This document shows, piece after piece, positions 3,700-54,506 of a DNA stretch of 60,122 nucleotides. The notes beneath the pieces were generated by a model. The model made no database searches. It was not told where the DNA came from and saw nothing but the letters and a program-made list of their open reading frames with translations. Every line of letters starts with the position of its first letter. The stretch's first letter is position 1. Source of the stretch: an uncultured Nitrosospira sp. (GTDB taxonomy: Bacteria; Nitrospirota; Nitrospiria; Nitrospirales; Nitrospiraceae); the NCBI GenBank assembly GCA_900696515.1, contig CAADGK010000094.1, positions 1 to 60,122 on the forward strand, written 5' to 3'. The position numbers were made by a program, and so were the translations under genes.

Positions 3700-3863
3700 C
3701 GATGGATCCTCACAGCGAACAATCAGCCTCCTCGCTATCTTAATGGATGGAGCAGGGGAAGGAAAGGACCAGCCCAGCATGATGACATCGCATGGTTGAT
3801 CGGATCATCTCAAGATTTGAGACATCCCGTCCGATATCGCTCAGTGACAGCCTCGAACAGCCT

Positions 3864-15830: not shown

Positions 15831-15905
15831 CAGAGAGCCTAGGTTTCATACCTAATATTTTCCAGCGAAGACAAGACCGACCATGCATTCATACTTTGCC
15901 CAGTG

Positions 15906-17177
15906 ATGATAGCGCCTACATCAGCCCAAACCAATTCTGCCTCAGCCGAGCAGGAATCACTTCGGACTCTGACCCGTTTCTTGCAGCAGATCGGACATCC
16001 GACAAGCCTGACGTGCCTTGCCGACCAAATTCTCCTGTGCCTCTCTGAAATTTCTGGGTACCCACAGGGTTCACTGTTCCTGTACGAGCCGGAACATCGC
16101 CGCTTCCGTCAGATCCATTCATTCGGACAGGTGGAGACCATCGTAGCTCATTCGGTCATGGATGCTGATCATCCCCTTATTCATTCTCTCAGCCTACGCC
16201 AGCACATTCTCCAACCGGGAAGCTCCGCTCTCGCCTCCCGCGCAGAACGTTCAGGCGAGATGATGAGTCCCTTTCCCGATCCCCATACGCTGGCCGTCCC
16301 ACTCGTCACACATGGAACCTTGATCGCCTTCTCGCTACTCCACTCACCGACCGCCCGGACAGCACTCTCATCCGTGACCGTGGAGCTCCTGACCGCGATG
16401 GCCCAGGGTGCCGCGAATGCACTTGATTCGCTCCTGATTTACGAGGATCTCCGCCAATCCCAGGCTCTGATGCGCCGAACCGACCGGTTGCGCTCGCTGG
16501 AAATCATCGCAGGCGGTTTTGCCCATGAAATCCGGAACCCCCTCACATCCATTAAGACCTTTATTCAGCTGGCTCCTGAACGGAAGGATGACAGCCAATT
16601 TATCGGCGAGTTCAGCCGCATTGTCCTCGAGGACGTCAACCGGATCGAACGATTGGTCCAAGAAATTCTGGACTACGCCCGCTACATGGAACCTCAGATG
16701 ACCGACGAGGACCTGAACGACATCGTTACCTCCTGCCTGTATTTCATCCAGGTCAAGGCAGACAGTCTGGGGATCAAGATCGAAAAACAGTTGGCGCCTG
16801 AGCTTCCTCGTGGCATGCTGGATCGTCAGCAAATCAAACAGGTACTCTTGAATCTCCTCTTGAATGCCCTCGATGCCATCGGCGAGGGACCGGGGAGCCT
16901 TCGGGTACGGACACATCAGTTCCAGAAACCAGAGGGTGCCCTCTTCATGCAGATCGACATTGAAGATTCCGGACACGGCATCGCACCCGAGAACCTGGAA
17001 CACATCTTCGACCCGTTCTTTACGACCAAACATACGAGCACAATGAACGCGGGAACCGGACTGGGATTAACCATCGCACACCAGATCATTCACGAGCATC
17101 ACGGCGACATTCACGTAGCCAGCACGGTCGGCCAAGGAACGACGTTCCGCATTACTCTTCCCGCGCTTCCCCAGTAG
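15906..17177 (+). CDS. GAF-domain sensor histidine kinase (NtrB-like)
   Basis: 423 residues with no membrane segment. A GAF-type sensor fills about 20-175, followed by a dimerisation helix with the phospho-accepting His207 (GGFAHEIRNPLTSIKTF), then HATPase_c with the N box QVLLNLLLNALDAIGEG and G boxes EDSGHGIAPENLEHIFDPFF and GTGLGLTIAHQII. It should sense a soluble signal in the cytosol and phosphorylate the NtrC-type regulator encoded 16 bp downstream. GTG at 15903 adjoins the ATG and is the only close alternative. Confidence 0.92.
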   Translation: MIAPTSAQTNSASAEQESLRTLTRFLQQIGHPTSLTCLADQILLCLSEISGYPQGSLFLYEPEHRRFRQIHSFGQVETIVAHSVMDADHPLIHSLSLRQHILQPGSSALASRAERSGEMMSPFPDPHTLAVPLVTHGTLIAFSLLHSPTARTALSSVTVELLTAMAQGAANALDSLLIYEDLRQSQALMRRTDRLRSLEIIAGGFAHEIRNPLTSIKTFIQLAPERKDDSQFIGEFSRIVLEDVNRIERLVQEILDYARYMEPQMTDEDLNDIVTSCLYFIQVKADSLGIKIEKQLAPELPRGMLDRQQIKQVLLNLLLNALDAIGEGPGSLRVRTHQFQKPEGALFMQIDIEDSGHGIAPENLEHIFDPFFTTKHTSTMNAGTGLGLTIAHQIIHEHHGDIHVASTVGQGTTFRITLPALPQ

Positions 17178-17193
17178 CACCCAAGGAGCCTTT

Positions 17194-18624
17194 GTGGAAA
17201 GTGTCATTGCGAAAAAACGGCTGTTATTGATCGATGACGAGGCTCGTGTCCGCGCCTCGCTGAAAATGGTGTTGGAACCACTCTACGACATCGCCCAAGC
17301 AGCCGACGGTTCGGAAGGAATCGATCTGTTTCGCAAGGAAGGCCCCGACCTGGTCCTGCTGGACATCGTCCTGCCTGGCACCGACGGTCTTGCCGTGCTG
17401 CAGATGTTGAGAACGGAGCGGAAATCCACTCCAGTGATCATGCTCACAGGTACGAAATCCGTGAAAACGGCCGTGGAGGCAATGAAGTTAGGTGCAGCCG
17501 ACTATCTTTCCAAACCATTCGACGTCGACGAACTTCGAATCGTGATCGACCGCGCCCTCAACTCCTCGGAATTGGAACAAGAAGTCACCCAGTTACGGGC
17601 ACAAGTCGTCCAGCGATACGCATTTCACAATCTGATCGGTAAGAGCCATGGAATGCAGGAGATCTACTCCAAAATCGAACAGGTTGCCGATAGCCGAACC
17701 ACGGTACTCATCACTGGGGAAAGCGGGACCGGAAAAGAGTTGGTCGCCAAGGCCTTGCATTACAACAGCTCCCGACGGGAGCGTCCATTTGTCGCACTCA
17801 ACTGCGCCGCGTTGCCCGAGACGCTCATCGAAAGCGAACTGTTCGGCCATGAAAAGGGATCCTTTACGGACGCCACAGCCCGGCGCGTCGGGCAGTTCGA
17901 ACTGGCAAACACCGGAACCTTGTTCCTTGATGAAATCGGCGATCTCAGCCCGATCACACAGGCCAAGTTGTTGCGCGTCATCCAGGAACGAGAGTTTACA
18001 AGAATCGGCGGGGTGCAGCCGATTAAGGTCGATGTCCGCATCGTCGCGGCAACCAATAAAAACCTTGATGAACTCGTTCGAAAAGGGCTGTTCCGGGAAG
18101 ATCTCTACTATCGAATCAACGTCATCTCACTGTATCTTCCTCCTCTTCGTGAGCGAGGCGAAGATATCCCCCTCATCGCCAACCATTTTCTGGAGAAACG
18201 GTTGCAGGAAGCACAGCGTCCCCCCATCGAGTTCGGGAAAGAGGCGTTGGAACTCCTGGCCCGTTATCCATGGCCCGGAAATGTACGTGAGCTGGAAAAC
18301 TTTGTTGAGCAGGCATTCATTTGGTCTCAGCATGCCACGGAAATCACCACGGAACATTTGCCGACTTCGATGAAGAGCACCTCTCGTTCACCATCGCTCC
18401 GCGACGACACCCTTGCCGGCCGGATGTCGCTCGAGAAAGCCGTGATGGAATTCGAGCGGGAAATCATTCTCGATGCCTTGAAACGAACCAATTATGTCCA
18501 GACCCATGCTGCGAATCTCCTGGGGATCAGCCGTCGAATGCTCAAGTATCGGATGGACACACTCGGTATCGGGCGGCCAGACAATTCAACCACTCAGGAT
18601 TCCGAACTTCCTGCGCAAGAATGA
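17194..18624 (+). CDS. Sigma-54-dependent NtrC-family response regulator
   Basis: 476 residues: receiver (about 8-120, phospho-acceptor Asp57 in LVLLDIVLPG), AAA+ domain (Walker A GESGTGKE at 175-182, FLDEIGDLSP Walker B, R fingers) and a Fis-type helix-turn-helix (AANLLGISRRMLKYRM) at the end. GTG start with AAGGAG upstream. The sigma-54 contact loop reads GSFTDA (222-227) rather than GAFTGA. GxFTDA forms occur in some members, so activity is plausible but not assured. It forms a two-gene unit with the upstream kinase. A possible target is the -24/-12 promoter at 6692, which is speculation. Confidence 0.92.
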   Translation: MESVIAKKRLLLIDDEARVRASLKMVLEPLYDIAQAADGSEGIDLFRKEGPDLVLLDIVLPGTDGLAVLQMLRTERKSTPVIMLTGTKSVKTAVEAMKLGAADYLSKPFDVDELRIVIDRALNSSELEQEVTQLRAQVVQRYAFHNLIGKSHGMQEIYSKIEQVADSRTTVLITGESGTGKELVAKALHYNSSRRERPFVALNCAALPETLIESELFGHEKGSFTDATARRVGQFELANTGTLFLDEIGDLSPITQAKLLRVIQEREFTRIGGVQPIKVDVRIVAATNKNLDELVRKGLFREDLYYRINVISLYLPPLRERGEDIPLIANHFLEKRLQEAQRPPIEFGKEALELLARYPWPGNVRELENFVEQAFIWSQHATEITTEHLPTSMKSTSRSPSLRDDTLAGRMSLEKAVMEFEREIILDALKRTNYVQTHAANLLGISRRMLKYRMDTLGIGRPDNSTTQDSELPAQE

Positions 18625-18813: not shown

Positions 18814-19941
18814 ATGACCAATTCTGCACAACCTTCCACGCGGCCCACTATTCTCATTATTGATGATGAGGTAGGACCACGGGACGCATTGAAAATTGTT
18901 CTTGGTCCTTTTTGCACCATTTACTGTGCCGAGAATGCCAGAACGGCGCGTGAGCTGCTCAGACAGAAGTCGATTGACCTGATTACCCTTGATCAAAAAC
19001 TGCCGGATCACCCTGGCCTGGAGCTCCTCCAGGAAATCAAGCTCGATTATCCCGACATAGAAGTTGTGATTGTCACGGGATACGGAAGTCTGAAATCCGC
19101 GATGGAAGGCATTCGTCAGGGTGCGGCAGGCTACTTACTTAAACCGTTTAATACGCACGAACTGACCACGCTCATTCAGCAAACGATCGAGAAGAAACGC
19201 CGACTGGATTTCCTTCGGCGGCACCTCCGCAACTCGCCTGAACTTTGGGGTTCTCCGGAACAAGGTACCGATGCGTGGCAAACCCTCCAAGTCAACTACC
19301 TTTCACTGTCTCCAAATCATGCACCCGCCGCAATGATCTCCTCGCAGGACGATATGAGACTGCTCCCCCTGTTCTCCGACATTCTTGAGGCGACTGACCG
19401 TCAGCTATTGAATCATTCGAGTCGTGTGAGTTTCTATGCCACATTGATGGCTGCCCGACTCAATCTTTCGCTCGCGGACCAAAAGGCGTTGGCTCTGGGT
19501 GCCTTTCTGCATGACATCGGCAAAACAGGCTTCCCTCACTATCGGTTTTCTGACGATCAGGTTCTGCCCTCACGAGAACCGGTCGTGTGCCGAGAACATC
19601 CCGGCAACGGCGCTCGAATGATTGAGTCCTTGGGACTATCAGCTGAGGTGGGACAGATTATCGCCGCTCACCACGAGCGATGGGATGGACAAGGATACCC
19701 GCTTGGACTTCGGGGCACGGAAATTCCGCTTATGGCTCGTATCGTGGGCATGGCTCAGTCATTTGATCATCTGACGGCAGACGCTCCGGGACGGTCTCCC
19801 CTATCCGTTGAACAGGCCATTCAGCAGATCACAACCCCCACGCTGATACAATTCGACCCGCAACTCCTGGAATTGTTCATCGACGTCGTCAAGGAATCGA
19901 CTGCCTCGAACCCGACCATGGCTGCCGTTCCGGCTGCCTGA
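18814..19941 (+). CDS. Response regulator with HD-GYP output domain
   Basis: 375 residues: receiver domain (10-125, phospho-acceptor Asp60 in LITLDQKLPD; conserved LKPF) joined to an HD-GYP domain (185-355) with FLHDIGK (H233-D234) and HHERWDGQGYP (286-296), all key residues present. It should hydrolyse cyclic di-GMP under phosphorylation control. There is no recognisable ribosome-binding site: TATAGA lies 5 bp before the ATG, so the message may be leaderless. Convergent with recN, the two stop codons lying one base apart. Confidence 0.9.
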   Translation: MTNSAQPSTRPTILIIDDEVGPRDALKIVLGPFCTIYCAENARTARELLRQKSIDLITLDQKLPDHPGLELLQEIKLDYPDIEVVIVTGYGSLKSAMEGIRQGAAGYLLKPFNTHELTTLIQQTIEKKRRLDFLRRHLRNSPELWGSPEQGTDAWQTLQVNYLSLSPNHAPAAMISSQDDMRLLPLFSDILEATDRQLLNHSSRVSFYATLMAARLNLSLADQKALALGAFLHDIGKTGFPHYRFSDDQVLPSREPVVCREHPGNGARMIESLGLSAEVGQIIAAHHERWDGQGYPLGLRGTEIPLMARIVGMAQSFDHLTADAPGRSPLSVEQAIQQITTPTLIQFDPQLLELFIDVVKESTASNPTMAAVPAA

Positions 19942-28842: not shown

Positions 28843-29337
28843 TCAGCCTTCCCTGGTGTAGGTTCCTGACTTCCCGCCCGATTTCGACAAGAGGCAGACC
28901 TCGCTGAAACTCATCCCCCGATCGACCGCCTTACACATGTCATAAATGGTCAACGCCGCGACCGTCGCGGCCGTCATGGCTTCCATCTCCACTCCCGTCG
29001 GGCCCGTCGTCTTGGCCGTGGCCGTAATGATAATGGAACAGCGGCCTGTTGGATCTGGCTGTGGTTCTTCTTTGAAGGCGATATCGACGCTGCTCAACAG
29101 AATTGGATGACACATGGGAATCAGGTCCGGCGTCTTCTTTGCACCCATCACACCAGCAACCTGAGCGACAGCCAAGACATCGCCCTTGGCAATCTTGCCT
29201 CGCTGAATCTTTTCAAGGGTTTCCGGAAGCAGAAAGACCCTGGCTTGAGCAGTAGCCAGCCGTTCGGTCGAATCCTTCGCACTGATATCGACCATCCGCG
29301 CCCGTCCCGATTCATTGAAGTGAGTGAATTCAGCCAT
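28843..29337 (-). CDS. moaC: Cyclic pyranopterin monophosphate synthase MoaC
   Basis: 164 residues starting MAEFTHFNESGRARMVDIS with the MoaC core KKTPDLIPMCHPILLSSVDI, TGVEMEAMTAATVAALTIYDMCKAVD and the Lys-rich LLSKSGGKSG end. Converts MoaA's cyclo-GTP to cPMP. It is first in the leftward moa group. Its promoter lies in the left copy of the 66-bp repeat bordering the adjacent insert. Confidence 0.96.
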   Translation of the reverse strand: MAEFTHFNESGRARMVDISAKDSTERLATAQARVFLLPETLEKIQRGKIAKGDVLAVAQVAGVMGAKKTPDLIPMCHPILLSSVDIAFKEEPQPDPTGRCSIIITATAKTTGPTGVEMEAMTAATVAALTIYDMCKAVDRGMSFSEVCLLSKSGGKSGTYTREG

Positions 29338-29344
29338 TTTGTCC

Positions 29345-29410
29345 GTTGAATCAGTATGTTGCAGTCAACAGCTAGCGGAATTATAGGTGCCGCCAAAGAG
29401 GAAGGTCAAG
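29345..29410 (+). repeat. Island-flanking direct repeat, left copy
   Basis: 66 bp beginning GTTGAATCAG and ending GAGGAAGGTCAAG; about 85% identical to 34827-34893, with one single-base indel. It lies immediately upstream of moaC and holds its promoter. The two copies bracket an AT-richer block of four accessory genes, suggesting insertion with duplication of the moaC upstream region. Confidence 0.75.
29380..29409 (-). promoter_or_regulatory. Sigma-70 promoter of the moa operon
   Basis: On the minus strand, TTGACC (29404-29409), an 18-bp spacer and a perfect TATAAT (29380-29385) lie 43 bp upstream of the moaC start. This promoter is embedded in the left copy of the direct repeat. In the right copy (34863-34892) the same -35 is kept but the -10 reads TACTGA. 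Confidence 0.7.
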
Positions 29411-29890
29411 GAATGGATGTGGCAAAGAGCTTCCTTAGGTCCAATAAATTTATGTAGGAACCAAACACATCTTGGTTCGAGAGATGGATGGTAGTCTAGA
29501 TTCACCTGCTCCGCTGCGGGAAGGCGATTTAGGATTGCGGGACAATCAGTGAACTCGAGAATGCTCTCCTCCCTGGCTAGCACTATGTTGAGTGACAAAC
29601 CCCGAGACGACCATCAGTGCCGACCTGGTACCTGCATTGATTGATAGATGCCATAAGCGTACTGCGCAGTCGATTCAGAACGGCCGCCCGGCAAGGCTGG
29701 AGTGAGCGAATAAGCAAATCATACACTCTGTCGTATGCTTAGCCGTGGAACCCGTTTCGGCAAGGCTGGGAATGCCGCTGGCGGACTTTATCAACAACCT
29801 GCTAGGATTGCCTCAACCTAACATCAACGTTATCCGCATCTAAATTATTGATTACTAGTTTGATACGACTATGTCTCAGGGGTCATCAAT
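29411..29890. other. Non-coding stretch at left end of the insert
   Basis: No convincing gene in about 480 bp. It contains the short dispersed repeat at 29777 and an ATAC-N8-GTAT palindrome near 29730. Composition shifts to AT-rich toward the acyltransferase gene. Confidence 0.5.
29777..29804. repeat. Dispersed short repeat, copy B
   Basis: 28 bp starting GCTGGCGGACTTT and ending CCTGCTA, like the copy at 9921-9948. Here it is in non-coding sequence inside the left edge of the accessory insert. Confidence 0.5.
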
Positions 29891-30928
29891 ATGAACAGGC
29901 GATTGCACAGAGTATTCGACCACTTGCGAAACGGGACGGTCGCTCACACCATCAAGAGATACCTTGCAAGACGCAGGAAATATTATGCCTATCAAGTTTC
30001 AGGTGCCCTCACGCAACAAAAAATCGTAACAACATTGAAAAACCTTGGGCTTTCACCAGGGGATCTGGTGTGTGTTCATAGCAGTTTTAGCTCTTTAGGA
30101 TATGTAGAAGGTGGACCAGGAACCTTCATTAAAGCATTAGAGGAAGTGGTTGGATCCACAGGGACCATCATGATGCCCACCTTTTCCATGACAGGCAGCA
30201 TGTTGTCTTACCTTGAATCCGGAGAGATTTATGATATCCGAAAAACTCCATCCAAAGTCGGGGCCCTCACGGAGACGTTCCGAAATTGGCCCGGCGTTAC
30301 CCGTAGCCTCCATCCCACCAACTCGGTTGCTGCTAAAGGCCGGTTGGCACATGACCTCTTATCCGGCCATCACCGGTCGATCCGACCTTTTGGGTTGGAA
30401 ACTCCGTTCGGTCGCTTAGCAGCCCTGGACGGGAAGATCCTCATGATTAACACGCATATTCATAGTTTCTTACATCATGTGCAAGACCTAGTAGATTTTC
30501 CAAATTTATATTTAAATGAAACCAGAACAGCCCGAGTTCTAGATGACAAAGGAGTAGGGTCTATCGTTGAAACTAAGGTAATGCGTACACGAGTACCTTA
30601 CTACCTCATTTTACCTGGAACGGATGGCTTCGAAGAAGATTTTGTGCTTCTGCATGACTATGCGCTTATTTTTCCAGAGAGTCGTGCGACGGCTGTCCGC
30701 AAAGCAGGTTTTCGCTTGCGGAACCACCCCGAGATTATGGGGAGACTCGAATTTCTTCAGAGCAAGAACATTTTGCGCACCGACGACCTAGGCGCAGCTC
30801 GCATTGGACTCCTCCAATCCAGTTCTTTCTTGCAGGAGATCCGCCCACAAATGGAGGCTTTGCTAACTCGGTTTCGCACACGCTACGATATTGAAAGAAT
30901 TCAAGGCTTAAATCTTCCCTATTTATAG
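29891..30928 (+). CDS. AAC(3)-family N-acyltransferase
   Basis: 345 residues with the aminoglycoside 3-N-acetyltransferase fold: LSPGDLVCVHSSFSSLGYV (about 55-75), TIMMPTFSMTGS, TRSLHPTNSVAAKG and MINTHIHSFLHHVQDL carry the family motifs and conserved His. The family uses acyl-CoA to acylate an amine; many members are not resistance enzymes but act in polysaccharide or natural-product pathways. AGGGGT lies 7 nt before the ATG. Next come a chorismate-lyase-like protein and an acyl-activating ligase, so its acyl donor could be a hydroxybenzoyl-CoA (inference). Codon use is AT-richer than the surrounding chromosome. Confidence 0.82.
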   Translation: MNRRLHRVFDHLRNGTVAHTIKRYLARRRKYYAYQVSGALTQQKIVTTLKNLGLSPGDLVCVHSSFSSLGYVEGGPGTFIKALEEVVGSTGTIMMPTFSMTGSMLSYLESGEIYDIRKTPSKVGALTETFRNWPGVTRSLHPTNSVAAKGRLAHDLLSGHHRSIRPFGLETPFGRLAALDGKILMINTHIHSFLHHVQDLVDFPNLYLNETRTARVLDDKGVGSIVETKVMRTRVPYYLILPGTDGFEEDFVLLHDYALIFPESRATAVRKAGFRLRNHPEIMGRLEFLQSKNILRTDDLGAARIGLLQSSSFLQEIRPQMEALLTRFRTRYDIERIQGLNLPYL

Positions 30929-31050
30929 GCGACTGAACGCGCTGAGCGTGAAACTGGGAACAACTTATTCTTTCGCCTTTCATGGCAACTACCCGGAGGA
31001 TTCCATGGCGTACTGAAGGAAATCTTGCTTCTTGTCCTTGGAGACCACCT

Positions 31051-31647
31051 ATGCACGAGACCAACAACTTTGATCCAATGAATGACCTGCTCAGAGCTCA
31101 ATTTGCATTACCTGCAGATTTGCGAGAGCTTAACCTTCGAACATTAACCCCATTCCAACGTGCTCTTTTGGTCACTGATGGCACGGTAACCAAGTTTATT
31201 GAAGCCTACACAATGGAGCAGATCGAGATCGTACGGTTGGGCCAGGAAATTAGGCCATTGACCGTTGACAACGAATGGCTAGAAGCAGAAAAAGGCAGTA
31301 CGGTCCTCATGCGTCAGGTCTTATTGCGTGGCAAATGGAGCTATACCTGTTACGCTTACGCCCCGTCGCTGATCGTCCTTGATCGACTGCCTCAGTTTAT
31401 TAGAGATGGCCTAGAATTAGATGGTGGGGGAATTGGCCGCATTTTATATGGTAATCGTTGGGAAACGCACCGAGAGTTACTCTGGTGGGGCAAAGAGATT
31501 CTCAAAAATGTGCCCGACGCCCTTAACGGCATGACCGGCGTAGAAGCTTTAAGCAGGACATACCGGATCATTGCGGGCGGGAAACCCATCATGTTGATAA
31601 ACGAAAAATTTCCTGTTCCTGGCGATACAACACCAGCGCATCATTAG
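31051..31647 (+). CDS. Chorismate pyruvate-lyase family protein (UbiC/DUF98)
   Basis: 198 residues from the ATG at 31051, which has GGAG 7 nt upstream; earlier in-frame codons from 30982 lack a site. The core LTPFQRALLVTDGTVTKFIE, the RQVLLRG segment and the late YRIIAGGKPIMLINEKFP match DUF98/UbiC-like chorismate lyases, which release pyruvate from chorismate to give 4-hydroxybenzoate. Its likely product is a natural substrate for the AMP-forming ligase encoded 103 bp downstream. No ubiA or ubiquinone genes are nearby, so a role outside quinone synthesis is likely. Confidence 0.75.
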   Translation: MHETNNFDPMNDLLRAQFALPADLRELNLRTLTPFQRALLVTDGTVTKFIEAYTMEQIEIVRLGQEIRPLTVDNEWLEAEKGSTVLMRQVLLRGKWSYTCYAYAPSLIVLDRLPQFIRDGLELDGGGIGRILYGNRWETHRELLWWGKEILKNVPDALNGMTGVEALSRTYRIIAGGKPIMLINEKFPVPGDTTPAHH

Positions 31648-31750
31648 CCGACATCTAAGCAGTTATGGTTCGGAGAAGGCGTTGCTAGCGTTCTTCTTAA
31701 GTACCAGCAAAAGATCGAAGAAATCGGGTGGCATCCCAGAAGGAGATTCC

Positions 31751-33079
31751 ATGAATTTTCAGTACCTAGATCCATTCATTGAGACGCTTGGGCGTGACGC
31801 CTTACAGCAAATTCAATTAAAGAAACTACAATTAATGCTGGATCCCATACTGAGAACAAATAGTTTCTACCGATTAAAGCTACAAACGGCGGGGATTAAG
31901 CACGCACATGCGATTCAAACCTTTGATGATTACCGGAAGCTCCCTTTTACAACAAAAGAGGAGCTATCAAACGATCAGTCACTCCAGCCACCCTATGGAA
32001 CCAACCTAACGTTTACACGTGAGGAATACACTCGAATCCACCAAACCTCTGGCACCACAGGACAACCATTGCGCTGCTTGGATACAGAGGAGAGTTGGGG
32101 TTGGTGGGCTCGCTGTTGGGCAACCGTGTATAAGGCCGCCGGAGTATCCTCGCATGATCGGATCTTTTTTGCTTTTTCGTTTGGCCCGTTCATTGGGTTT
32201 TGGAGCGCCCATGAAGGAGCACGAGTGATCGGTGCCATGTCTATTTCTGGTGGAGGGATGTCTTCTCAGCAACGCGTTAAGGCTATTTTCAACTATGAAG
32301 TGACGGTTCTAGTCTGCACTCCCACGTATGCCCTGCATTTGGGAGAAATCGCTAAGGACGAGGGCATGGATCTGGCCACGTCAAGCATACGGATTAATAT
32401 CCATGCAGGAGAACCCGGCGCGAGCATCCCTGGAACACGGAAACGCATTGAGTCGATTTGGAACGCCAAATGTTATGACCATGCCGGAGCGACCGAAGTT
32501 GGAGCCTGGGGGTTTGAATGCATGGCTCAACACGGTCCTCACATCAATGAAGGTGAGTTTATCTGCGAAGTAATTGACCCGGTTACAGGAGCTCCTGCCC
32601 AAGAAGGAGAGTTAGTGATCTCTAACCTCGGACGAGTGGGAATGCCCGTGATCCGATACCGGACTGGTGATCGAGTGAAGTTGAATACTGATCTCTGCGA
32701 ATGCGGCAGGACCTTTCATCGTCTAGAGGGGGGGGTTATCGGCAGAGTGGATGGAGTCATTGTCATCCGTGGCATCAATGTATTTCCAAGTGCGATTGAA
32801 AATATCGTGAGGCAATTTCCTGAAGTTGGGGAATTCACAGTGGACGTATATCGCTCCCGTGAGTTGGATGAAATGGAACTTCGGGTGGAAGTGACAACGG
32901 GCGACCCAGAAGCCATCGCGGCTGCAATTGCGAACAAAATTCGGGATGCGCTTACCCTGCGTGTGGCGATAAAGATTGTTCCACACGGGACACTGCCACG
33001 TTTTGATTTAAAAGCCAGACGTTTTAACGATTACCGCCAATCGGCCAGGACGGTGGCACCTAAGCAACCTGGCTTTTGA
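31751..33079 (+). CDS. PaaK-like adenylate-forming acyl-CoA ligase
   Basis: 442 residues from the ATG at 31751 (AGGAG 5 nt upstream). The ANL signature IHQTSGTTGQPL is at about 98-109, with YDHAGATEVGAWGFE, YRTGDRVKL, the cysteine pair LCECGRTFHRLEGG and the hinge RVDGVIVIRGINVFPSAIE of phenylacetate-CoA-ligase-type enzymes. It should adenylate an aromatic carboxylate and pass it to CoA. Next to a chorismate lyase, 4-hydroxybenzoate is the simplest substrate guess. The end FDLKARRFNDYR supplies the catalytic lysine region. Confidence 0.88.
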   Translation: MNFQYLDPFIETLGRDALQQIQLKKLQLMLDPILRTNSFYRLKLQTAGIKHAHAIQTFDDYRKLPFTTKEELSNDQSLQPPYGTNLTFTREEYTRIHQTSGTTGQPLRCLDTEESWGWWARCWATVYKAAGVSSHDRIFFAFSFGPFIGFWSAHEGARVIGAMSISGGGMSSQQRVKAIFNYEVTVLVCTPTYALHLGEIAKDEGMDLATSSIRINIHAGEPGASIPGTRKRIESIWNAKCYDHAGATEVGAWGFECMAQHGPHINEGEFICEVIDPVTGAPAQEGELVISNLGRVGMPVIRYRTGDRVKLNTDLCECGRTFHRLEGGVIGRVDGVIVIRGINVFPSAIENIVRQFPEVGEFTVDVYRSRELDEMELRVEVTTGDPEAIAAAIANKIRDALTLRVAIKIVPHGTLPRFDLKARRFNDYRQSARTVAPKQPGF

Positions 33080-33130
33080 AAACGATTACTACAACCCTTT
33101 CAGGCAGTCCCGGCAATCGCGCTGCACCTT

Positions 33131-34303
33131 CTAGGTTCCTAAGAGCCGCTGCTCACGGCTGAGCGCATCGACAAAGAACTTGGTGGCCCAGTTGAGGATA
33201 TGCAGACGACCGTAGTCACCCCAGACCGGCCATGATCCGGGAACTCCTCCACGGAGCCGCTCATCCGGATTCCGAATGTCATGGCGTTCCATTAGATAAC
33301 GATTGATTAGGTGGGCTGCCGCGCGGTACTTCTCCTCCCTCGTCAAGGAGTAGAGATCGCTCCAGACAATCGATGTTTGCGCCGATCCTGTCAGACAACA
33401 CCAATCGACTGCGGCCGAAAAATCTTCGCGCTGGCGCCCAGGAAGGAATCCATCTGCCCGCATTATTTGTATCTCAGCGTCTGCCAGCAATCGTGCACCC
33501 GCGATCAAATCCCACCGATTGGTTCGCGTTCCAATTCCAAGCAGACCCTGCATGGCATAGGCGAGAGTATGCAGAAGAGGTACACGCGCGTCCGACAAGC
33601 AACAATCAGGCAACCAGCCATTCAGTCGTTGCCGAACGAGGCAGTTTTCAGCATTACGTATCGCTGCAGAAACATAGCGCTCCTCACCCAGGGCATAACC
33701 TGCCTCACACAGACCCCATGCAGCCTTCACATTGTACAGAGTCATTCCTGCTGTAGCATGCCGAGAATGGCCTTTTACCCATGTGCCATCAGGCTCTTGA
33801 ATGGACACCAGCCAGTCAGACGCACGCCTCGCGGCCAATTTGAAACGTTCCTCCCCGGTGCGACGAATCAACGCACTCCAGCCCAGGAGCACCATACCCG
33901 TATTAAAAACAGCGGGAGACGGTTTCAAGTTGAACGTACCTCCCATAACAGCACCCTCCGAGAGTTGGATGGCGATCTCCCAATCAGCCATAGCAATCGC
34001 ACGGGCAAGCAAGTCCGCATCCCCGGTCAGCGCTTCCTGCTCGACAAACGTCTGACAGATATACCCCGTGGTCTCCGGATAACTAGCATCAAACTCTCCG
34101 CCGAAATGCACACCATACGACACACCTCGGTCGGCACCAGTATCCTGAGCTCGCCGCAACCATTCCATGGCTTCCTTGAGATGGCGTTGGAGGTCAAGAT
34201 CACATGCATCTGGAGAGTAGAGCTGGCTCAGCTGCATTTTTTCTTGTCTGCGCCGCATCTGCACAGACAACTTTCGCGCTACTTTTCCTACAAGACTTAT
34301 CAT
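33131..34303 (-). CDS. Alpha/alpha-barrel protein (six-hairpin glycosidase or terpene-cyclase-like)
   Basis: 390 residues on the opposite strand, convergent with the ligase gene (52 bp apart). Repeating helical hairpins are visible: DASYPETTGYICQTF, FNTGMVLLGWSALIR, ASDWLVSIQEPDGTW, LYNVKAAWGLCEAGYAL, LLHTLAYAMQGLLGIG. Such (alpha/alpha)6 barrels occur in glycoside hydrolases, polysaccharide lyases, epimerases and prenyl/terpene cyclases. The PDGTW motif also recalls squalene-cyclase repeats, but the DxDD motif is absent. No signal peptide. The substrate cannot be named; a role on a saccharide modified by the neighbouring acyltransferase is a guess. Confidence 0.6.
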   Translation of the reverse strand: MISLVGKVARKLSVQMRRRQEKMQLSQLYSPDACDLDLQRHLKEAMEWLRRAQDTGADRGVSYGVHFGGEFDASYPETTGYICQTFVEQEALTGDADLLARAIAMADWEIAIQLSEGAVMGGTFNLKPSPAVFNTGMVLLGWSALIRRTGEERFKLAARRASDWLVSIQEPDGTWVKGHSRHATAGMTLYNVKAAWGLCEAGYALGEERYVSAAIRNAENCLVRQRLNGWLPDCCLSDARVPLLHTLAYAMQGLLGIGTRTNRWDLIAGARLLADAEIQIMRADGFLPGRQREDFSAAVDWCCLTGSAQTSIVWSDLYSLTREEKYRAAAHLINRYLMERHDIRNPDERLRGGVPGSWPVWGDYGRLHILNWATKFFVDALSREQRLLGT

Positions 34304-34826
34304 GTTTGAGATCCTTCTCCCTAATCAACGCGCTGCGTAAGGCGCGGTTGACTCAGAACCGTTCATCATGTGAGTGCCACGTATGTTTCCTGAGAAGCCT
34401 ATGGATGACGAAAAAACTCATCCGAGTAACGATCATCACGTGCTCCGGTAATAACAAACGAATGTTCAGAGACCTTACAGAATTAAGACCCAAGTCAGAG
34501 GAGCCTTCTTGTAAACTCAGTACTCCAAGGAAGCAACTACGCCCGTAGACCAATGATAGTCAATGGTCATCGAACAACCGGGGGATTGTCAAGTCAACTT
34601 CCTCATGTCCTTCGCCATTGTTTCCCGCAATATTTTGTAAAAATAGCCGGGGAGCACAGCTTCAAAGGAGCCTATTACTTTCATTCTGAGCGCAGTGACG
34701 ATAGATGTAATCCGAGCTAAGGAACGCCGCCTCCGCAAGCCAAACGCCACCGCGGAGTACGCGAAAGGGTGTAAAGTAATAGCAACGCCATTCAACTTGT
34801 GATTCTCCGTAGCGTGGGAATCATAT
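34304..34826. other. Largely non-coding right end of the insert
   Basis: No supportable gene. On the minus strand, 34589-34846 encodes an 84-residue frame whose end (AVLPGYFYKILRETMAKDMR) looks protein-like and may be the tail of a lost gene. It has no ribosome-binding site, and its start lies in the flanking repeat, so I treat it as a possible remnant only. Confidence 0.35.
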
Positions 34827-34893
34827 GTTGAATCAGCAGGTTGCAATCAACAGCTGGCGGAATCAGTAGGTGCCGCCAAAGAGGAAGGTCAAG
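34827..34893 (+). repeat. Island-flanking direct repeat, right copy
   Basis: Right-hand partner of the repeat at 29345-29410. It keeps the -35-like TTGACC but has lost the TATAAT of the moaC promoter, and no moaC follows it. This fits a duplicated, now decaying end of an insertion. Confidence 0.75.
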
Positions 34894-34927
34894 AAAGGGG
34901 AAGATGCAACACGGCTGTCGGCCCCCA

Positions 34928-35431
34928 TTACGGTAAGGATTGGAGCCTGATCCGTGTTGCCTCGATGGTACCTGGGCCAGAGAAGACGATGTTGCCCGCA
35001 GTATCGTGAATCTCCACCAAAATAGTTCCTTGCAGTTGTTCGCCGCCGTGGATCAATTGAAATTGGTACCGCACCTTTTCCTTACCGATCACAACGCCCG
35101 GTGACGTGGGATGATCCGGAGCGCCCTGGTAGAGCAGCACGATTGTGGCCTCAAATCTGTCATTCTTCGAACGACGCCACTCCCCGTGACCTAGGGTGGC
35201 TAGCAGAGGGCCAAGCGGAGACTGCGGGAAATAGAGTCGGCGTGACTCGACGAGATTGCCGTCCGCACCGAACGTAAGGAGGGTGGGAAGCGATACCGTG
35301 GATGAGCGGGCAACTCCTTCCCAGGAGCCTGTCGGCGCACGATCTTCGTGAGCGAAAGCAGGCGGTCCAATCAACACGGCAAGCACGAGTCCAAGTACGC
35401 CCAGGATACTTTTGAGATGATGCGATTCCAT
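34928..35431 (-). CDS. Secreted hypothetical protein
   Basis: 167 residues with a good signal peptide (GVLGLVLAVLIGPPAFAHE) and a GAGAGGT ribosome-binding site 4 nt before the ATG. The mature part is beta-rich (TGSWEGVARSSTVSLPTLLTF, then RYQFQLIHGGEQLQGTILVEI), suggesting a small lipocalin-like barrel. I do not recognise a family. It is just outside the right repeat of the insert, so it is probably native chromosome. Confidence 0.6.
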   Translation of the reverse strand: MESHHLKSILGVLGLVLAVLIGPPAFAHEDRAPTGSWEGVARSSTVSLPTLLTFGADGNLVESRRLYFPQSPLGPLLATLGHGEWRRSKNDRFEATIVLLYQGAPDHPTSPGVVIGKEKVRYQFQLIHGGEQLQGTILVEIHDTAGNIVFSGPGTIEATRIRLQSLP

Positions 35432-42947: not shown

Positions 42948-42987
42948 TTGACAGATCCACGAAAGCATGTGACATTATGTCACATGC
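42948..42987 (+). promoter_or_regulatory. Promoter and 23-bp palindromic operator of the imuB-dnaE2 cassette
   Basis: TTGACA (42948-42953) serves as -35, with a weak -10 around 42972-42978. A perfect palindrome fills 42965-42987: arms GCATGTGACAT and its reverse complement around a single central T. It covers the -10, the likely transcription start and the ATG at 42984, so the message is probably leaderless and its repressor would block both. The first product is an XRE-S24 repressor, the natural binder. The sequence is unlike the E. coli LexA box. Confidence 0.75.
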
Positions 42988-43526
42988 GACCGGGATCGTT
43001 ACGGGAACTTCGAAAGACGCTGGGGATGACGCAGGAGACCCTCGCTCAGACGCTGCACTGCACCCGCCGATCGATCATCCGCTATGAAGATGGCACTGTT
43101 CCGATTCCCATGACGGTGGAATTAGCCCTCATGCAGCTCAGCTCCGCCCAGATTCCGCTAGCGGGAGTGGTTGCGGCTGGGGCGCCCATTGAACCGATTC
43201 CTCAGATGGAACGCGTCGAGGTGCCGAAAAGCATGGTCGGTCGTGGCGAGACCTTCGCCCTTCGTGTGAAAGGCACGTCCATGCAGAATGAGGGCATCTT
43301 TCCAGGTGACATTGTCGTGGTGCAGAAACACTCGTCTGCCAGCAATGGCCAGACCGTGATCGCTTTGGTAAACGGCGAGGCCACGATCAAGACGTACCTC
43401 CGTAAGGCCGGTACAGTAGAACTCCATCCCGCCAATGACGCCATGCAGCCGATTATCATCAAGCCCTCGGACAGTTTCCAGATCGAAGGCATTGTCGTCG
43501 GCGTCATCCGTCACCTCCGAAAGTGA
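42984..43526 (+). CDS. XRE-HTH / S24 peptidase LexA-like repressor
   Basis: 180 residues. An XRE helix-turn-helix (5-50: LRELRKTLGMTQETLAQTL, RRSIIRYEDG) replaces LexA's winged helix. The S24 domain keeps the self-cleavage site GVVAAGAP (Ala65-Gly66), catalytic Ser99 (VKGTSMQ) and Lys136 (EATIKTYL), so RecA-stimulated autocleavage is expected. A TTG at 42948 would extend it by 12 residues but coincides with the -35 box, and the ATG at 42984 lies within the operator. It most likely represses itself plus imuB and dnaE2, taking the place of LexA; imuA is absent. Confidence 0.88.
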   Translation: MRPGSLRELRKTLGMTQETLAQTLHCTRRSIIRYEDGTVPIPMTVELALMQLSSAQIPLAGVVAAGAPIEPIPQMERVEVPKSMVGRGETFALRVKGTSMQNEGIFPGDIVVVQKHSSASNGQTVIALVNGEATIKTYLRKAGTVELHPANDAMQPIIIKPSDSFQIEGIVVGVIRHLRK

Positions 43527-43545
43527 GGCTCAGGCCGTTGGCACC

Positions 43546-44730
43546 ATGGATCGCCAGATTGTCTGCTTTGGGATTCCTACCTTTGAAGTCGCCGTTGCTC
43601 GGCTTCACAATCCCAGCCTCTCGACTCGACCACTGGCCATCGCTCCGTTAAATACCTCCCGGGCCTGCCTACGTGAAGTCTCATCCGAAGCGGAACAGGC
43701 AGGCCTTGGGATTGGCATGTCCGTCGAGCAGGCCCGACGGGTCTGTCCCTCCCTGCACGTCCTCTCCCCGGATCCCTCTCGCGTCCGTACGGCGGAGGAG
43801 TGTTTGCTTCAGGTCGTGAGACGCTACGCTCCGGTCTGGGAACCGGTTCAACCTGGTTTCTTCGTGATGGATCTGACCGGGACCGGACGACTCTTCGGAC
43901 CAGCCTCTGATGTCGCGGCGAAGGTCCAGCATGAGGTGCTCGCTCAGTATCGACTTGATGGGGTCGCCGGTGTTGGGAGCAACAAGCTGGTGGCTCAGAC
44001 TGCAGCGACGTTGATTCAGCCGTCAGAACTGTATGATGTCCGCCCAGGGTCGGAGCCGGTGTTCATGGCACCGCTGTCGGTACGCACCCTGCCAGGTCTG
44101 CAGCGGCCCTGCATGCGGCAAGTCTTGTCACGGCTCGATGATTTGAACCTCGACCGGCTCGGCGATGTCGCGGAGAGCCCGGTTGATGCGCTGGAAGTCG
44201 CATTAGGAGACTACGCCGGACAGCTCTCTCGCTGGGCCCAAGGGATTGATTCATTGCCGGTGCTGCCACCGGCGAGTCAGCCTCATCTCGAAGAGATGGT
44301 CTTATTGGACCCGGATGAGATCGATGATTACGTGCTGACTGGCCGATTGCTCGACACGCTGCAACGGCTCTGCCGAATGCTGCGGAGTCAGCGCCGCGTC
44401 TGTGGCCGTCTGTCCCTCACGATCCGCTACCGCGATCACCTTGAAGTGACCAAACAAGAGCGCGTCACGCCCGAGACCTGCTGGGAATGTGATCTGTCCC
44501 CCGTGGTGCGGTCGCTCTTTCAGAAATGCATGCGTCGGCGCATTCGACTCCGTGCCATGACGCTCAGCATGGCCGGCTTGACTGGATTTGCCCAGCAAGG
44601 CGTGCTGTTTGATGCCCGGCCTGTCGAGGAACAGCGTCGGCAGGAGCGGGCTAAGAAGCTCTCCGTCGCGCTCGATCAGCTCCATGCTCGATTCGGTGAG
44701 CAGGCCATTCGGTATGGGAGGAGTGATTGA
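43546..44730 (+). CDS. imuB: ImuB-like Y-family polymerase homologue (catalytically dead)
   Basis: 394 residues of Y-family architecture. The metal-binding Asp of motif I is gone (VCFGIPTFEVAVA where polymerases have VDMDxFFAxVE), and the S-x-DE pair reads FVMDLTGTGRLFG, so only one of three acidic residues remains. This is the ImuB pattern. QGVLF near residue 356 looks like a beta-clamp-binding motif. ImuB is the adaptor that brings DnaE2 to the clamp in mutagenic translesion synthesis. ATG at 43546 is 19 bp past the repressor stop; the last base adjoins the dnaE2 GTG. Confidence 0.85.
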   Translation: MDRQIVCFGIPTFEVAVARLHNPSLSTRPLAIAPLNTSRACLREVSSEAEQAGLGIGMSVEQARRVCPSLHVLSPDPSRVRTAEECLLQVVRRYAPVWEPVQPGFFVMDLTGTGRLFGPASDVAAKVQHEVLAQYRLDGVAGVGSNKLVAQTAATLIQPSELYDVRPGSEPVFMAPLSVRTLPGLQRPCMRQVLSRLDDLNLDRLGDVAESPVDALEVALGDYAGQLSRWAQGIDSLPVLPPASQPHLEEMVLLDPDEIDDYVLTGRLLDTLQRLCRMLRSQRRVCGRLSLTIRYRDHLEVTKQERVTPETCWECDLSPVVRSLFQKCMRRRIRLRAMTLSMAGLTGFAQQGVLFDARPVEEQRRQERAKKLSVALDQLHARFGEQAIRYGRSD

Positions 44731-47700
44731 GTGGCCTTCGTCCACCTGCATACACATTCGTCCTTTTCGCCGATGTGGGGTATCCCGACAGTGAAGACCC
44801 TCTGTCAGGCAGCTCAATCACAGGGACAGGACTATCTCGCCCTCACAGATACCAATGGGCTGTATGGCGCGATCCGTTTTCTGGAGGTCGCCCGTGAGCA
44901 TGGACTGAAGCCGATCATCGGTACGGAACTCGTCTCCGATCAGCACCGGGCCGTGTTGCTCGCGAAGAATGTCACGGGGTACGGCAATCTTTGCCGGATT
45001 CTCTCCGCTCGCCACTGCGATGCGTCCTTTGAGTTCATCGAGACCGTGACGCGGCATCGCACGGGACTGGTGTTGCTGTCCGATGATCCTGTCGCCCTGA
45101 CTGCCTGGCTGGCGGAGTCGGAAGAGGATCTCTATGTCGAGTTGACCCCGGGTCTCGCCTTATCAGACATGGTCGCGTTGAGCCGGAGACAACGACTGCC
45201 GCCGGTAGCCACCACCCGCGCCGCGTTCCTGCACCCAGCCGACTATGAGGCCCATCGGTTGCTACGAGCGATCGCTGAAAACACGACCCTCTCACGACTC
45301 AAGCCGGGGCACTGTGCGCTCCCCTCTCACTGGCTCATGCCTGAACGTGTGCTCGCTGGACATCTGCCCCACGTGCCAGTAGCTGTCGCCAACTCACGGA
45401 GCATTGCTGAGCAGTGCTACACCGAGTGGGACTTCAAACAGACCATCTTTCCCTCCTTCCGTCAGCTCTCCTCGGACGCCGCCTTTGAAACCCTGCGCCG
45501 CAAGACCTATGACGGCGCCATCTGGCGATATGGTGCCTTGTCTCCCGTCGTCCGAGAGCGCATCGAAAAGGAACTCACCGTGATCTGTGACAAGGGCTAT
45601 GCCGACTACTTTCTCGTGGTGGATGAAATTGTCCGTCAAGCGCCACGAACCTGTGGTCGAGGATCTGCTGCCGCGTCGATCGTGTCCTATTGTCTCGGGA
45701 TTACCCATGTGGATCCGATTCGACATCATTTGATGTTTGAACGATTTCTCAATCCCGGGCGTGACGATCCGCCAGACATCGACATTGATTTCCCATGGGA
45801 CGAGCGACCAAAGATTCTCGACTGGGTGTTTGCCCACTATGGACACCAACACGCGGCCATGGTCGCCAATCAGAACACCCTCGCCTCTCGGGCCGCCTTG
45901 CGTGAGATTGCGAAGGTGTATGGCCTGCCCGCCGGTGAGATTGGCAAGGCGCTGAATTTTCTCCAGCGGCGAGCGGACTTCGTCGATGTGCGACCAGGGA
46001 CGACGGTGCAAGACTGGGCGCGGGACGTCTGCAGGGCCTTGAACCTGAGGAACCCTTGGCCAGAGATTCTCTATTGGTCCACGCAATTGGACGGTCATTT
46101 CAGGAATCTGAGCCTCCATCCCGGCGGTGTCGTGTTAGTTCCGGATGAGATCCGGCGTTATGTACCGGTTGAGATCTCCGCTTCTAACTTGCCAGTGATC
46201 CAATGGGAGAAGGATCAAACCGAAGACGCGGGGCTCGTCAAAATCGATCTCTTAGGCAATCGCTCGCTCGCTGTCATCCGGGATGCCATCGCGGCCGTCG
46301 CCCGCAACACTGGCCGGGTCATTGACTATGCGACGTGGGACCCGATCACTGATCCGGCCACCAATGACCTGATTCGGCGCGGCGAAACGATGGGCTGCTT
46401 CTATGTGGAGTCTCCCGCAACTAGACTGTTACTCAAGAAGCTCTGGGGTGGGATGCCACCAGAGCGACACGCCGTGGCCGATGTCTTTGAATATCTCGTG
46501 GTGGTGTCGTCGCTCATACGCCCCGCTGCGAATGTGTTCGCCGATGAATTCGTGCGTCGAGCCCATGGGCAGCGCTATCAGTCACTTCATCCCTTGTTTG
46601 ATGAGGTCCTCGCGGAGACGCACGGCATCATGGTTTATCAGGAAGATGTCATGAAAGTGGCGGTCGCACTAGGTGGCTTTTCCGTGGAAGACGGCGATCA
46701 GCTTCGGAAGGTGTTGAGCAAGAAGCACAAGGAACGGCAACTACGAGACTATCAATGCCAGTTCTATCAGGGAGCCATGGCCCGTGGTGTGGAGTGTCGC
46801 GTGATCGATGCGATCTGGGCCATGATCATGAGCTTCGCCGGCTATAGCTTCTGTAAGCCGCATAGTGCGAGCTATGCCCAGGTCAGTTTCAAATCAGCCT
46901 ACCTGCGAGCCCACTATCCAGCGGAGTTCATCGCCGCAGTCGTGAGTAATCAAGGCGGCTACTACTCGGCCTTCGCGTACCTCTCGGAGGGACGACGGAT
47001 GGGGCTGACGATCCTGCCGCCGGACATCAACGCGAGTGTGTGGGTCTATACCGGATCAGGGACCATCGTTCGAGTGGGTCTGATGCAGATCAAAGGCGTG
47101 CAAGAAGACCTCGTCACACAGATCGTTGTGGAGCGAGAAACGAACGGTCCTTACCGATCGCTGTCAGAGTTTCTGAGTCGCGTGAAGCTCGACTACGCGC
47201 AAGCGAAATTGTTGATCAAAGCCGGATGCTTCGACTCCATCGCTGGAGAACTCACCAGACCAGCCCTTTTGTGGCGTGTCTTTGCCGCGCAAGCGGCCAA
47301 GCCACCGAGCTCCATCCCCATTCCCACGGAGTATTCAGCCCAGAAAAAACTGCAGCACGAGCTCGCCCTCTTTGGCTTTCCCTTACACTGTCACCCACTC
47401 GATCTGTTTACGGAGCTACTGGCTGCGACCACTCACATATTCGCGAAGGACTTAAATCAGTATGTCGGGAAAGAAGTGACCCTCATCGGTTGGCTTCTTA
47501 CTGAGAAGATCGTCTCCACCAAGAAAGGTGAGCCGATGGAGTTTATGACTCTGGAGGATCAGACCGGGATGTATGACGCAACGGTGTTTCCCAACACCTA
47601 CCGAACCTACTGCCATCTGCTCGCGGCGAACCAAGCTTACATGCTGACAGGCCTGGTAGAAGAGCAGTTCTCAACTGTCACGGTCACCGTGAAAACCCTC

Positions 47701-47763
47701 CAACTCCTGACCACCGGTGGAATCCCGGCACCGAGTGAGTCTCTTGAGGAGCAAAGCGTGTAG
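44731..47763 (+). CDS. dnaE2: Error-prone DNA polymerase III alpha subunit DnaE2
   Basis: 1010 residues with GTG start. PHP domain at the N-terminus (FVHLHTHSSFSPMWGIPT), C-family polymerase core with CGRGSAAASIVSYCLGITHVDP and the catalytic PDIDIDFPWDER, the third Asp region GLVKIDLLGNRSLAVI, helix-hairpin-helix regions (SLSEFLSRVKLDYAQAK) and an OB fold at the end (VTLIGWLLTEKIVSTKKGE). It copies damaged DNA with mutations after SOS induction, acting with ImuB. Slightly shorter than typical DnaE2. It abuts imuB without a gap. Confidence 0.92.
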   Translation: MAFVHLHTHSSFSPMWGIPTVKTLCQAAQSQGQDYLALTDTNGLYGAIRFLEVAREHGLKPIIGTELVSDQHRAVLLAKNVTGYGNLCRILSARHCDASFEFIETVTRHRTGLVLLSDDPVALTAWLAESEEDLYVELTPGLALSDMVALSRRQRLPPVATTRAAFLHPADYEAHRLLRAIAENTTLSRLKPGHCALPSHWLMPERVLAGHLPHVPVAVANSRSIAEQCYTEWDFKQTIFPSFRQLSSDAAFETLRRKTYDGAIWRYGALSPVVRERIEKELTVICDKGYADYFLVVDEIVRQAPRTCGRGSAAASIVSYCLGITHVDPIRHHLMFERFLNPGRDDPPDIDIDFPWDERPKILDWVFAHYGHQHAAMVANQNTLASRAALREIAKVYGLPAGEIGKALNFLQRRADFVDVRPGTTVQDWARDVCRALNLRNPWPEILYWSTQLDGHFRNLSLHPGGVVLVPDEIRRYVPVEISASNLPVIQWEKDQTEDAGLVKIDLLGNRSLAVIRDAIAAVARNTGRVIDYATWDPITDPATNDLIRRGETMGCFYVESPATRLLLKKLWGGMPPERHAVADVFEYLVVVSSLIRPAANVFADEFVRRAHGQRYQSLHPLFDEVLAETHGIMVYQEDVMKVAVALGGFSVEDGDQLRKVLSKKHKERQLRDYQCQFYQGAMARGVECRVIDAIWAMIMSFAGYSFCKPHSASYAQVSFKSAYLRAHYPAEFIAAVVSNQGGYYSAFAYLSEGRRMGLTILPPDINASVWVYTGSGTIVRVGLMQIKGVQEDLVTQIVVERETNGPYRSLSEFLSRVKLDYAQAKLLIKAGCFDSIAGELTRPALLWRVFAAQAAKPPSSIPIPTEYSAQKKLQHELALFGFPLHCHPLDLFTELLAATTHIFAKDLNQYVGKEVTLIGWLLTEKIVSTKKGEPMEFMTLEDQTGMYDATVFPNTYRTYCHLLAANQAYMLTGLVEEQFSTVTVTVKTLQLLTTGGIPAPSESLEEQSV

Positions 47764-54431: not shown

Positions 54432-54506
54432 CATGAAAATCTGTATGACATCGCCACCAGTCAACCTCTCCCCTCAAGGCTCACAATGGCAGCCCTCAAT
54501 CTCGGG

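Follow-up and report, generated by a model that had tools for sequence, protein, structure and literature searches.

A horizontally moved gene cassette of Nitrospira that may lead from chorismate to an aroylated glycan precursor

The window analyzed here, positions 1 to 60,122 of contig CAADGK010000094.1 (assembly GCA_900696515.1; 60,122 nucleotides), comes from a Nitrospira genome designated G000; other G numbers denote genomes of relatives. Beside moaC, the window contains an inserted segment whose genes encode an AAC(3)-fold acyltransferase, an Rv2949c-like chorismate lyase, a PaaK-like aryl-CoA ligase and, facing these three, an (alpha/alpha)6-barrel protein (Table 1). These four genes (the cassette; the first three are its core) are best explained by a route in which chorismate would supply an aromatic acyl group to a glycan precursor.

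The insert and its genes

The segment is bounded by two copies of a direct repeat, which are 89% identical with one 1-base gap. In at least five relatives (G011, G075, G032, G006, and G062), moaC, a single copy of this repeat, and the gene that begins at 34928 are contiguous. This single-copy empty site indicates that the segment in G000 is an insertion, and its precision, together with the empty sites in the five relatives, fits a mobile genetic element. No integrase or transposase was found among the genes or open reading frames of the insert. The original prediction had placed a repeat-bounded, AT-richer insert here with four genes of the types named above. The repeats are real and flank the insert, although they are 72 bp long rather than 66 bp, and the GC content of the insert lies below that of all 246 same-size overlapping segments of the remaining sequence (53.1-58.0%). 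The gene types are also upheld, through Pfam and NCBIfam matches for the core and a predicted (alpha/alpha)6 fold for the fourth protein. The left repeat copy holds the moaC promoter (TTGACC-18-TATAAT, minus strand, 29409-29380), the sole promoter-like site that a promoter scan reported across the region. The duplication has left moaC with a promoter; the copy adjacent to moaC keeps the -10 box.

Table 1. Features of the insertion site and of the insert (positions in the window)
Feature	Position	Strand	Basis or remark
moaC, left flank of the insertion site, outside the pathway	28843..29337	-	domain searches; synteny in relatives
Left repeat copy, moaC promoter region	29345..29416	-	93-96% identity to the lone copy that five relatives have at their empty site
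Inserted segment, 5.4 kb, GC 50.1%	29417..34826		missing at the orthologous site of relatives
Dispersed intergenic repeat, stem-loop forming	29688..29805	+	partial copies at four other places in G000
Antibiotic_NAT (AAC(3)-fold) acyltransferase, 345 aa	29891..30928	+	Pfam; Gln198 in place of the family Glu, His195 retained (SFLHHVQ)
Rv2949c-like chorismate lyase, 198 aa	31051..31647	+	Pfam; start set by homologues, open reading frame opens at 30982
PaaK-like aryl-CoA ligase, 442 aa	31751..33079	+	start set by homologues, open reading frame opens at 31682
(alpha/alpha)6-barrel protein, exopolysaccharide-cluster family	33131..34303	-	convergent with the operon; model, tree
Right repeat copy	34827..34899	-	88-90% identity to the single copy of relatives; promoter -10 box lost
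Hypothetical protein, right flank of the insertion site, outside the pathway	34928..35431	-	synteny in relatives

The acyltransferase belongs to the Antibiotic_NAT family (PF02522, E 1e-43, 149.8 bits against a gathering threshold of 25), and it falls under the curated NCBIfam AAC_3 cut-off (116.9 versus 270 bits). Its AlphaFold2 model is poor (pLDDT 41). The lyase matches the Rv2949c-like chorismate lyase family (PF01947) with an E value of 4e-14 and 53.4 bits (gathering threshold 22), and the solved protein 2nwi is similar to it. In a MAFFT alignment with Escherichia coli UbiC and homologues, Arg88 and Glu185 of the lyase align with Arg76 and Glu155 of UbiC (LMRQVLL/LREILL and INEKF/LTELF), which we take to be the catalytic, product-binding residues of that enzyme; a direct profile comparison of the close lyase set with UbiC gave no significant match. 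A search of viral contigs and plasmids for relatives of the lyase found none.

The ligase matches the Pfam domain AMP-binding_C_2 (E 2e-19) and PaaK-type NCBIfam models, and its motifs (the P-loop SGTTG at 100, EPGAS at 221, GATE at 246, and LKARR at 420) place it among the PaaK-like aryl-CoA ligases; it remains under the equivalog cut-off for the phenylacetate-CoA ligase PaaK itself (TIGR02155, 242 versus 646 bits). In 2-hydroxyisobutyryl-CoA ligase, Tyr164 and Ser239 make the pocket small and polar (PMC8388817). In an alignment that assumes an offset of 11 for the tag, the cassette ligase has the non-polar residues Phe147 and Ala219 at these positions, which would be compatible with, though not diagnostic of, a 4-hydroxybenzoate-CoA ligase.

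The fourth protein has no Pfam family above threshold, giving weak alpha/alpha-type matches only, but its AlphaFold2 model (pLDDT 70, pTM 0.77) is an (alpha/alpha)6 barrel. This model aligns with 3wiw over 322 residues (VIA-align; Z 28.9, rmsd 3.5), and its best structural matches are an unsaturated glucuronyl hydrolase (Z 28.9), a cellobiose 2-epimerase (Z 28.7), and GH105. The protein is thus predicted to have a sugar-enzyme fold of the GH88/GH105/AGE type. Glu77, His245, and Asp379 are invariant in its family.

Recurrence of the cassette and its parts

Of 79 Nitrospira genomes searched for the ligase, five gave a match at E 1e-60. The four others (G007, G020, G061, and G101) keep the order acyltransferase-lyase-ligase with similar spacing, and their proteins are 71-75% (acyltransferase), 87-89% (lyase), and about 88% (ligase) identical to those of the window. 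The housekeeping protein AccD is 93-95% identical among the cassette-bearing genomes, so that the cassette of the window is more diverged than this marker. Across the four compared, the ratio dN/dS is 0.03-0.16, and dS reaches about 1 or more when the window is set against the others; the three-gene core is under purifying selection, with the acyltransferase evolving faster (up to 0.16, versus 0.03-0.08).

The cassette lies at different loci. G007 and G061 share a neighbourhood that includes a Y1 transposase gene, a transposase-type gene is found near the cassette of G020, and the cassette of G101 lies at the end of a contig. In G061 (locus L034), a 68-bp direct repeat (82%; 7947-8014 and 18863-18930, 10.9 kb apart) surrounds the cassette and spans the start of a Y1 transposase gene. 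(It should be noted that the lyase gene of G020, at 3497-4092 of locus L015, is split over two frames by a frameshift, possibly a misassembly of this metagenome-assembled genome, whose stated coverage is low.)

A barrel gene accompanies the core in all five genomes. It is adjacent in four: in G007, G020, and G061 it lies directly upstream of the acyltransferase gene on the same strand, and in G000 it lies beyond the ligase gene, on the opposite strand. In G101, contig C27 terminates with the barrel gene and contig C10 with the core; since the orientations of these ends match, core and barrel probably adjoin there as well. Judged from the tree, in which the G000 barrel groups with those of G313, G265, and G137 while the other four cassette barrels form a clade of their own (100/100), the G000 barrel is not an orthologue of the barrel in the other four cassettes. 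Consequently, a barrel joined the core at least twice. A further combination is seen in G012. There, the neighbours of yet another barrel gene encode an acyl ligase of the AMP-binding type, a short-chain dehydrogenase, and an AAC(3) homologue, about 41% identical, that keeps the Glu (TFYHGVE). That a barrel, an acyl ligase, and an AAC(3) homologue have come together repeatedly argues most strongly for their working together. The G012 module (locus L076, 7867-15884) is situated between two Y1 (IS200-like) transposase genes that are 88% identical and oppositely oriented.

Relatives of the barrel occur in 18 of 296 Nitrospirota genomes, and many of the neighbourhoods read look like polysaccharide clusters, with recurrent glycosyltransferase-like and asparagine-synthase-like genes. 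In G101 such a cluster is confirmed by Pfam, with glycosyltransferases, an O-antigen-ligase-type gene, and asparagine-synthase-type genes ahead of the barrel. The branch to which the G000 barrel belongs is represented in exopolysaccharide clusters.

Single parts of the cassette are also found elsewhere. Distant lyases in Nitrospirota (loci L046-L049) have no adjoining AAC(3) homologue or ligase. The nearest ligase beyond Nitrospira, 67% identical and from a Latescibacterota metagenome-assembled genome, adjoins a tryptophan-halogenase-type gene, with neither a lyase nor an AAC(3) homologue adjoining. That locus (L024, 2948-11737) also has AMP-binding, aldehyde dehydrogenase-type, and iron-containing alcohol dehydrogenase genes beside the ligase and looks like a natural-product cluster.

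A possible route from chorismate to an aroylated sugar

Taken together, these observations suggest that the cassette is an accessory module of Nitrospira, spread by horizontal transfer, whose products aroylate a glycan precursor; this is the best explanation, to which a probability of roughly 0.45 is given. In such a pathway, the lyase would split chorismate into 4-hydroxybenzoate and pyruvate, and the PaaK-like ligase would convert the 4-hydroxybenzoate to 4-hydroxybenzoyl-AMP and then to the CoA thioester. The AAC(3)-fold enzyme would next place the 4-hydroxybenzoyl moiety on an acceptor, for which an amino (or perhaps a hydroxyl) group of a nucleotide sugar or a lipid-linked sugar is the likeliest candidate, and the (alpha/alpha)6 barrel would bind or remodel the acceptor sugar within an exopolysaccharide pathway. 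We infer all of the substrates, the link through CoA, the acceptor, which is probably a glycan precursor, and the surface-glycan destination. The fuller proposal, a dedicated cassette, transferred among nitrifying Nitrospira, that leads from chorismate through 4-hydroxybenzoyl-CoA to an aroylated sugar, uses a Glu-less AAC(3)-fold aroyltransferase, and yields phenolic surface glycans, is offered tentatively, as possible rather than probable.

The original prediction had likewise joined the core into one route and had considered that the fourth protein might handle a sugar, an interpretation that is partly supported. The co-occurrence of the three genes, in order, in 5 of the 79 Nitrospira genomes, the lyase residues kept at the positions of UbiC Arg76 and Glu155, and a ligase with an intact P-loop and catalytic Lys and with non-polar side chains at two pocket positions all agree with that route. 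Against its simple N-acyl transfer step stands the Gln found in place of the catalytic Glu in all five enzymes. The sugar-enzyme fold of the barrel and its relatives in polysaccharide clusters fit the second idea; the G000 barrel is not orthologous to that of the other cassettes. The prediction knew of no described system of this kind, and no paper joining the terms of the gene set was found, although a full-text search cannot prove absence.

Several points weigh against a glycan-aroylating module. The catalytic motif of the Antibiotic_NAT family is TxPhiHPhiAE, whose His and Glu every analyzed member retains (PMC8956665), but the cassette acyltransferases carry SFLHHVQ (192-198) in five of five cases, with Ser for Thr, His195 kept, and Gln198 for Glu. 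The cassette enzyme would consequently either use His195 without a Glu partner or take a different acceptor. The scores of the ligase for named ligases are far under their cut-offs, and its specificity stays putative. Ligase relatives of 50-54% identity are present in genomes without a lyase match, and in seven genomes with ligase relatives of 34-67% identity no lyase was found at E 0.001, in a search that had no positive control. In G000, G007, and G061, no polysaccharide cluster surrounds the cassette, and the adjacency of C10 and C27 in G101 is read across a contig break. Nor was the cassette seen outside Nitrospira in one scan of all species genomes, which reached close ligase relatives only and thus tested this absence weakly. 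Finally, the pathway is proposed from genes, and neither an activity nor a product has been described for it.

The cassette might instead make a diffusible small molecule for signalling or competition, such as an N- or O-hydroxybenzoyl amino sugar, with no polysaccharide being decorated. Its stand-alone, mobile character and its presence in few genomes are consistent with this, as are the tryptophan-halogenase-type gene beside the Latescibacterota ligase and the occurrence, among the solved-structure matches of the acyltransferase, of FrbF, an Antibiotic_NAT-family protein of phosphonate biosynthesis (named in PMC8956665). However, the insert has no transporter, regulator, or tailoring gene, and the barrel family is associated with polysaccharide clusters, one of which the G101 cassette appears to end; a diffusible product is rated somewhat unlikely. 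That the genes moved together without forming one pathway, the ligase degrading or activating some unconnected acid while acetylation of another target falls to the AAC(3) homologue, is less likely again. The ligase relatives in genomes lacking a lyase match, some of which stand beside ABC-transporter-like or acyl-CoA dehydrogenase-like genes (read from sequence), and the faster evolution of the acyltransferase speak for this reading; against it, the order and spacing of the three genes are kept at a dS of about 1 or more and at different loci, and G012 again pairs a barrel with an acyl ligase and an AAC(3) homologue.

It is improbable that the lyase feeds 4-hydroxybenzoate to the quinone pool, that is, to methyl-plastoquinone, beside unrelated neighbours. 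Nitrospira makes methyl-plastoquinone with its own enzymes, which are homologous to those for ubiquinone, plastoquinone, and menaquinone and include MpqC, treated beside UbiC (PMC12324825, PMC13386864), and a UbiA homologue in G000 lies above the curated cut-off. (A search of ten Nitrospira genomes with the UbiC family PF04345 gave no match, and MpqC was not located.) Yet 38 of 39 Nitrospira genomes have a UbiA homologue and few have the Rv2949c-like lyase, so the lyase looks dedicated to the cassette, and its gene is in every case flanked by those for the acyltransferase and the ligase at comparable distances. Least credible of all, to the point of being nearly dismissed, is an aminoglycoside-resistance island, in which the AAC(3) homologue would acetylate aminoglycosides. 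An Antibiotic_NAT domain in a mobile setting would suit this, but the enzyme scores 117 bits against the AAC(3) cut-off of 270, carries Gln for Glu in all five genomes, and is not covered to 80% by any plasmid record, and its partner genes are unrelated to resistance.

If the aroylation of a glycan precursor is correct, chorismate would be spent by a bacterium on phenolic groups of a glycan, an unusual decoration, and such glycans could alter biofilm cohesion and metal or phage binding in widespread nitrifiers. The cassette would also be a case, open to testing, of an AAC(3)-fold enzyme that has become an aroyltransferase, and it would give its first functional context to an (alpha/alpha)6-barrel family whose recurrence in exopolysaccharide clusters is unexplained.

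Other features of the window and comparison with known systems

The dispersed repeat within the insert looks REP-like, and an Rfam search over the insert region gave no match. Its further partial copies in G000 (C90:9806-9917, C128:24311-24440, C15:179552-179609, and C24:31432-31485) are 69-83% identical and lie between genes or at or near gene ends. Elsewhere, the window encodes a histidine kinase followed by a sigma-54 response regulator (15903-18624), a homologue of the SelO protein adenylyltransferase (52953-54464), and, in a row, a LexA-like S24 peptidase with a helix-turn-helix, an ImuB-type Y-family polymerase, and a DnaE-type polymerase (42948-47763), which resemble an ImuB-DnaE2 mutagenesis cassette.

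To our knowledge, neither the gene set nor its aromatic donor nor its association with the barrel family has a precedent; the parts themselves are of known kinds. The literature on AAC(3)-type enzymes in polysaccharide clusters yielded one annotated case, from the lipopolysaccharide of Porphyromonas gingivalis (PMC8003790). The cassette acyltransferase shares its fold family and the His of the catalytic motif with FrbF, YokD, and BA2930, Antibiotic_NAT proteins without aminoglycoside activity, but is longer than these and differs from them in the Gln that replaces the motif Glu.

The lyase resembles the Rv2949c-like lyases in its PF01947 match above the gathering threshold and in the Arg and Glu that align with UbiC, whereas it scores far under the equivalog cut-off for the cyanobacterial chorismate lyase (NF037993; 22 versus 175 bits). 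The known roles of Rv2949c-like and cyanobacterial chorismate lyases are in mycobacterial phenolic glycolipids and in quinones, and we know of none that involves a PaaK-like ligase together with an AAC(3)-fold enzyme. The ligase belongs to the same family, and is of similar size, as the hydroxybenzoate-type natural-product ligases BagE/FevW and NatL2/AjiA1, but scores 117 bits against the BagE/FevW cut-off of 800. AjiA1 and NatL2 are reported to form a PaaK-family subset of benzoxazole biosynthesis, and AjiA1 to work without a domain conformation change (PMC8388817). AjiA1 has Thr (LTARR) in place of the catalytic A10 Lys (LKARR) of the cassette ligase; with this Lys present, the cassette ligase should be a normal CoA ligase.

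The barrel shares a fold over nearly its whole length (Z 25-29) with GH88/GH105 glucuronyl hydrolases and with cellobiose and N-acylglucosamine 2-epimerases, and AprG is among its Foldseek matches; it is, however, only 8-18% identical to (alpha/alpha)6 sugar enzymes, with no catalytic residues matched. As for the module as a whole, the systems that acyl-decorate the sugars of O-antigens and flagellin glycans are known to use aliphatic donors, whereas the donor of the proposed cassette would be aromatic and derived from chorismate. The likeness to such systems, of which the modified viosamine of Pseudomonas syringae (PMC3927599) is an example, lies in a small operon by which an acyl donor is made and then transferred to an amino sugar.

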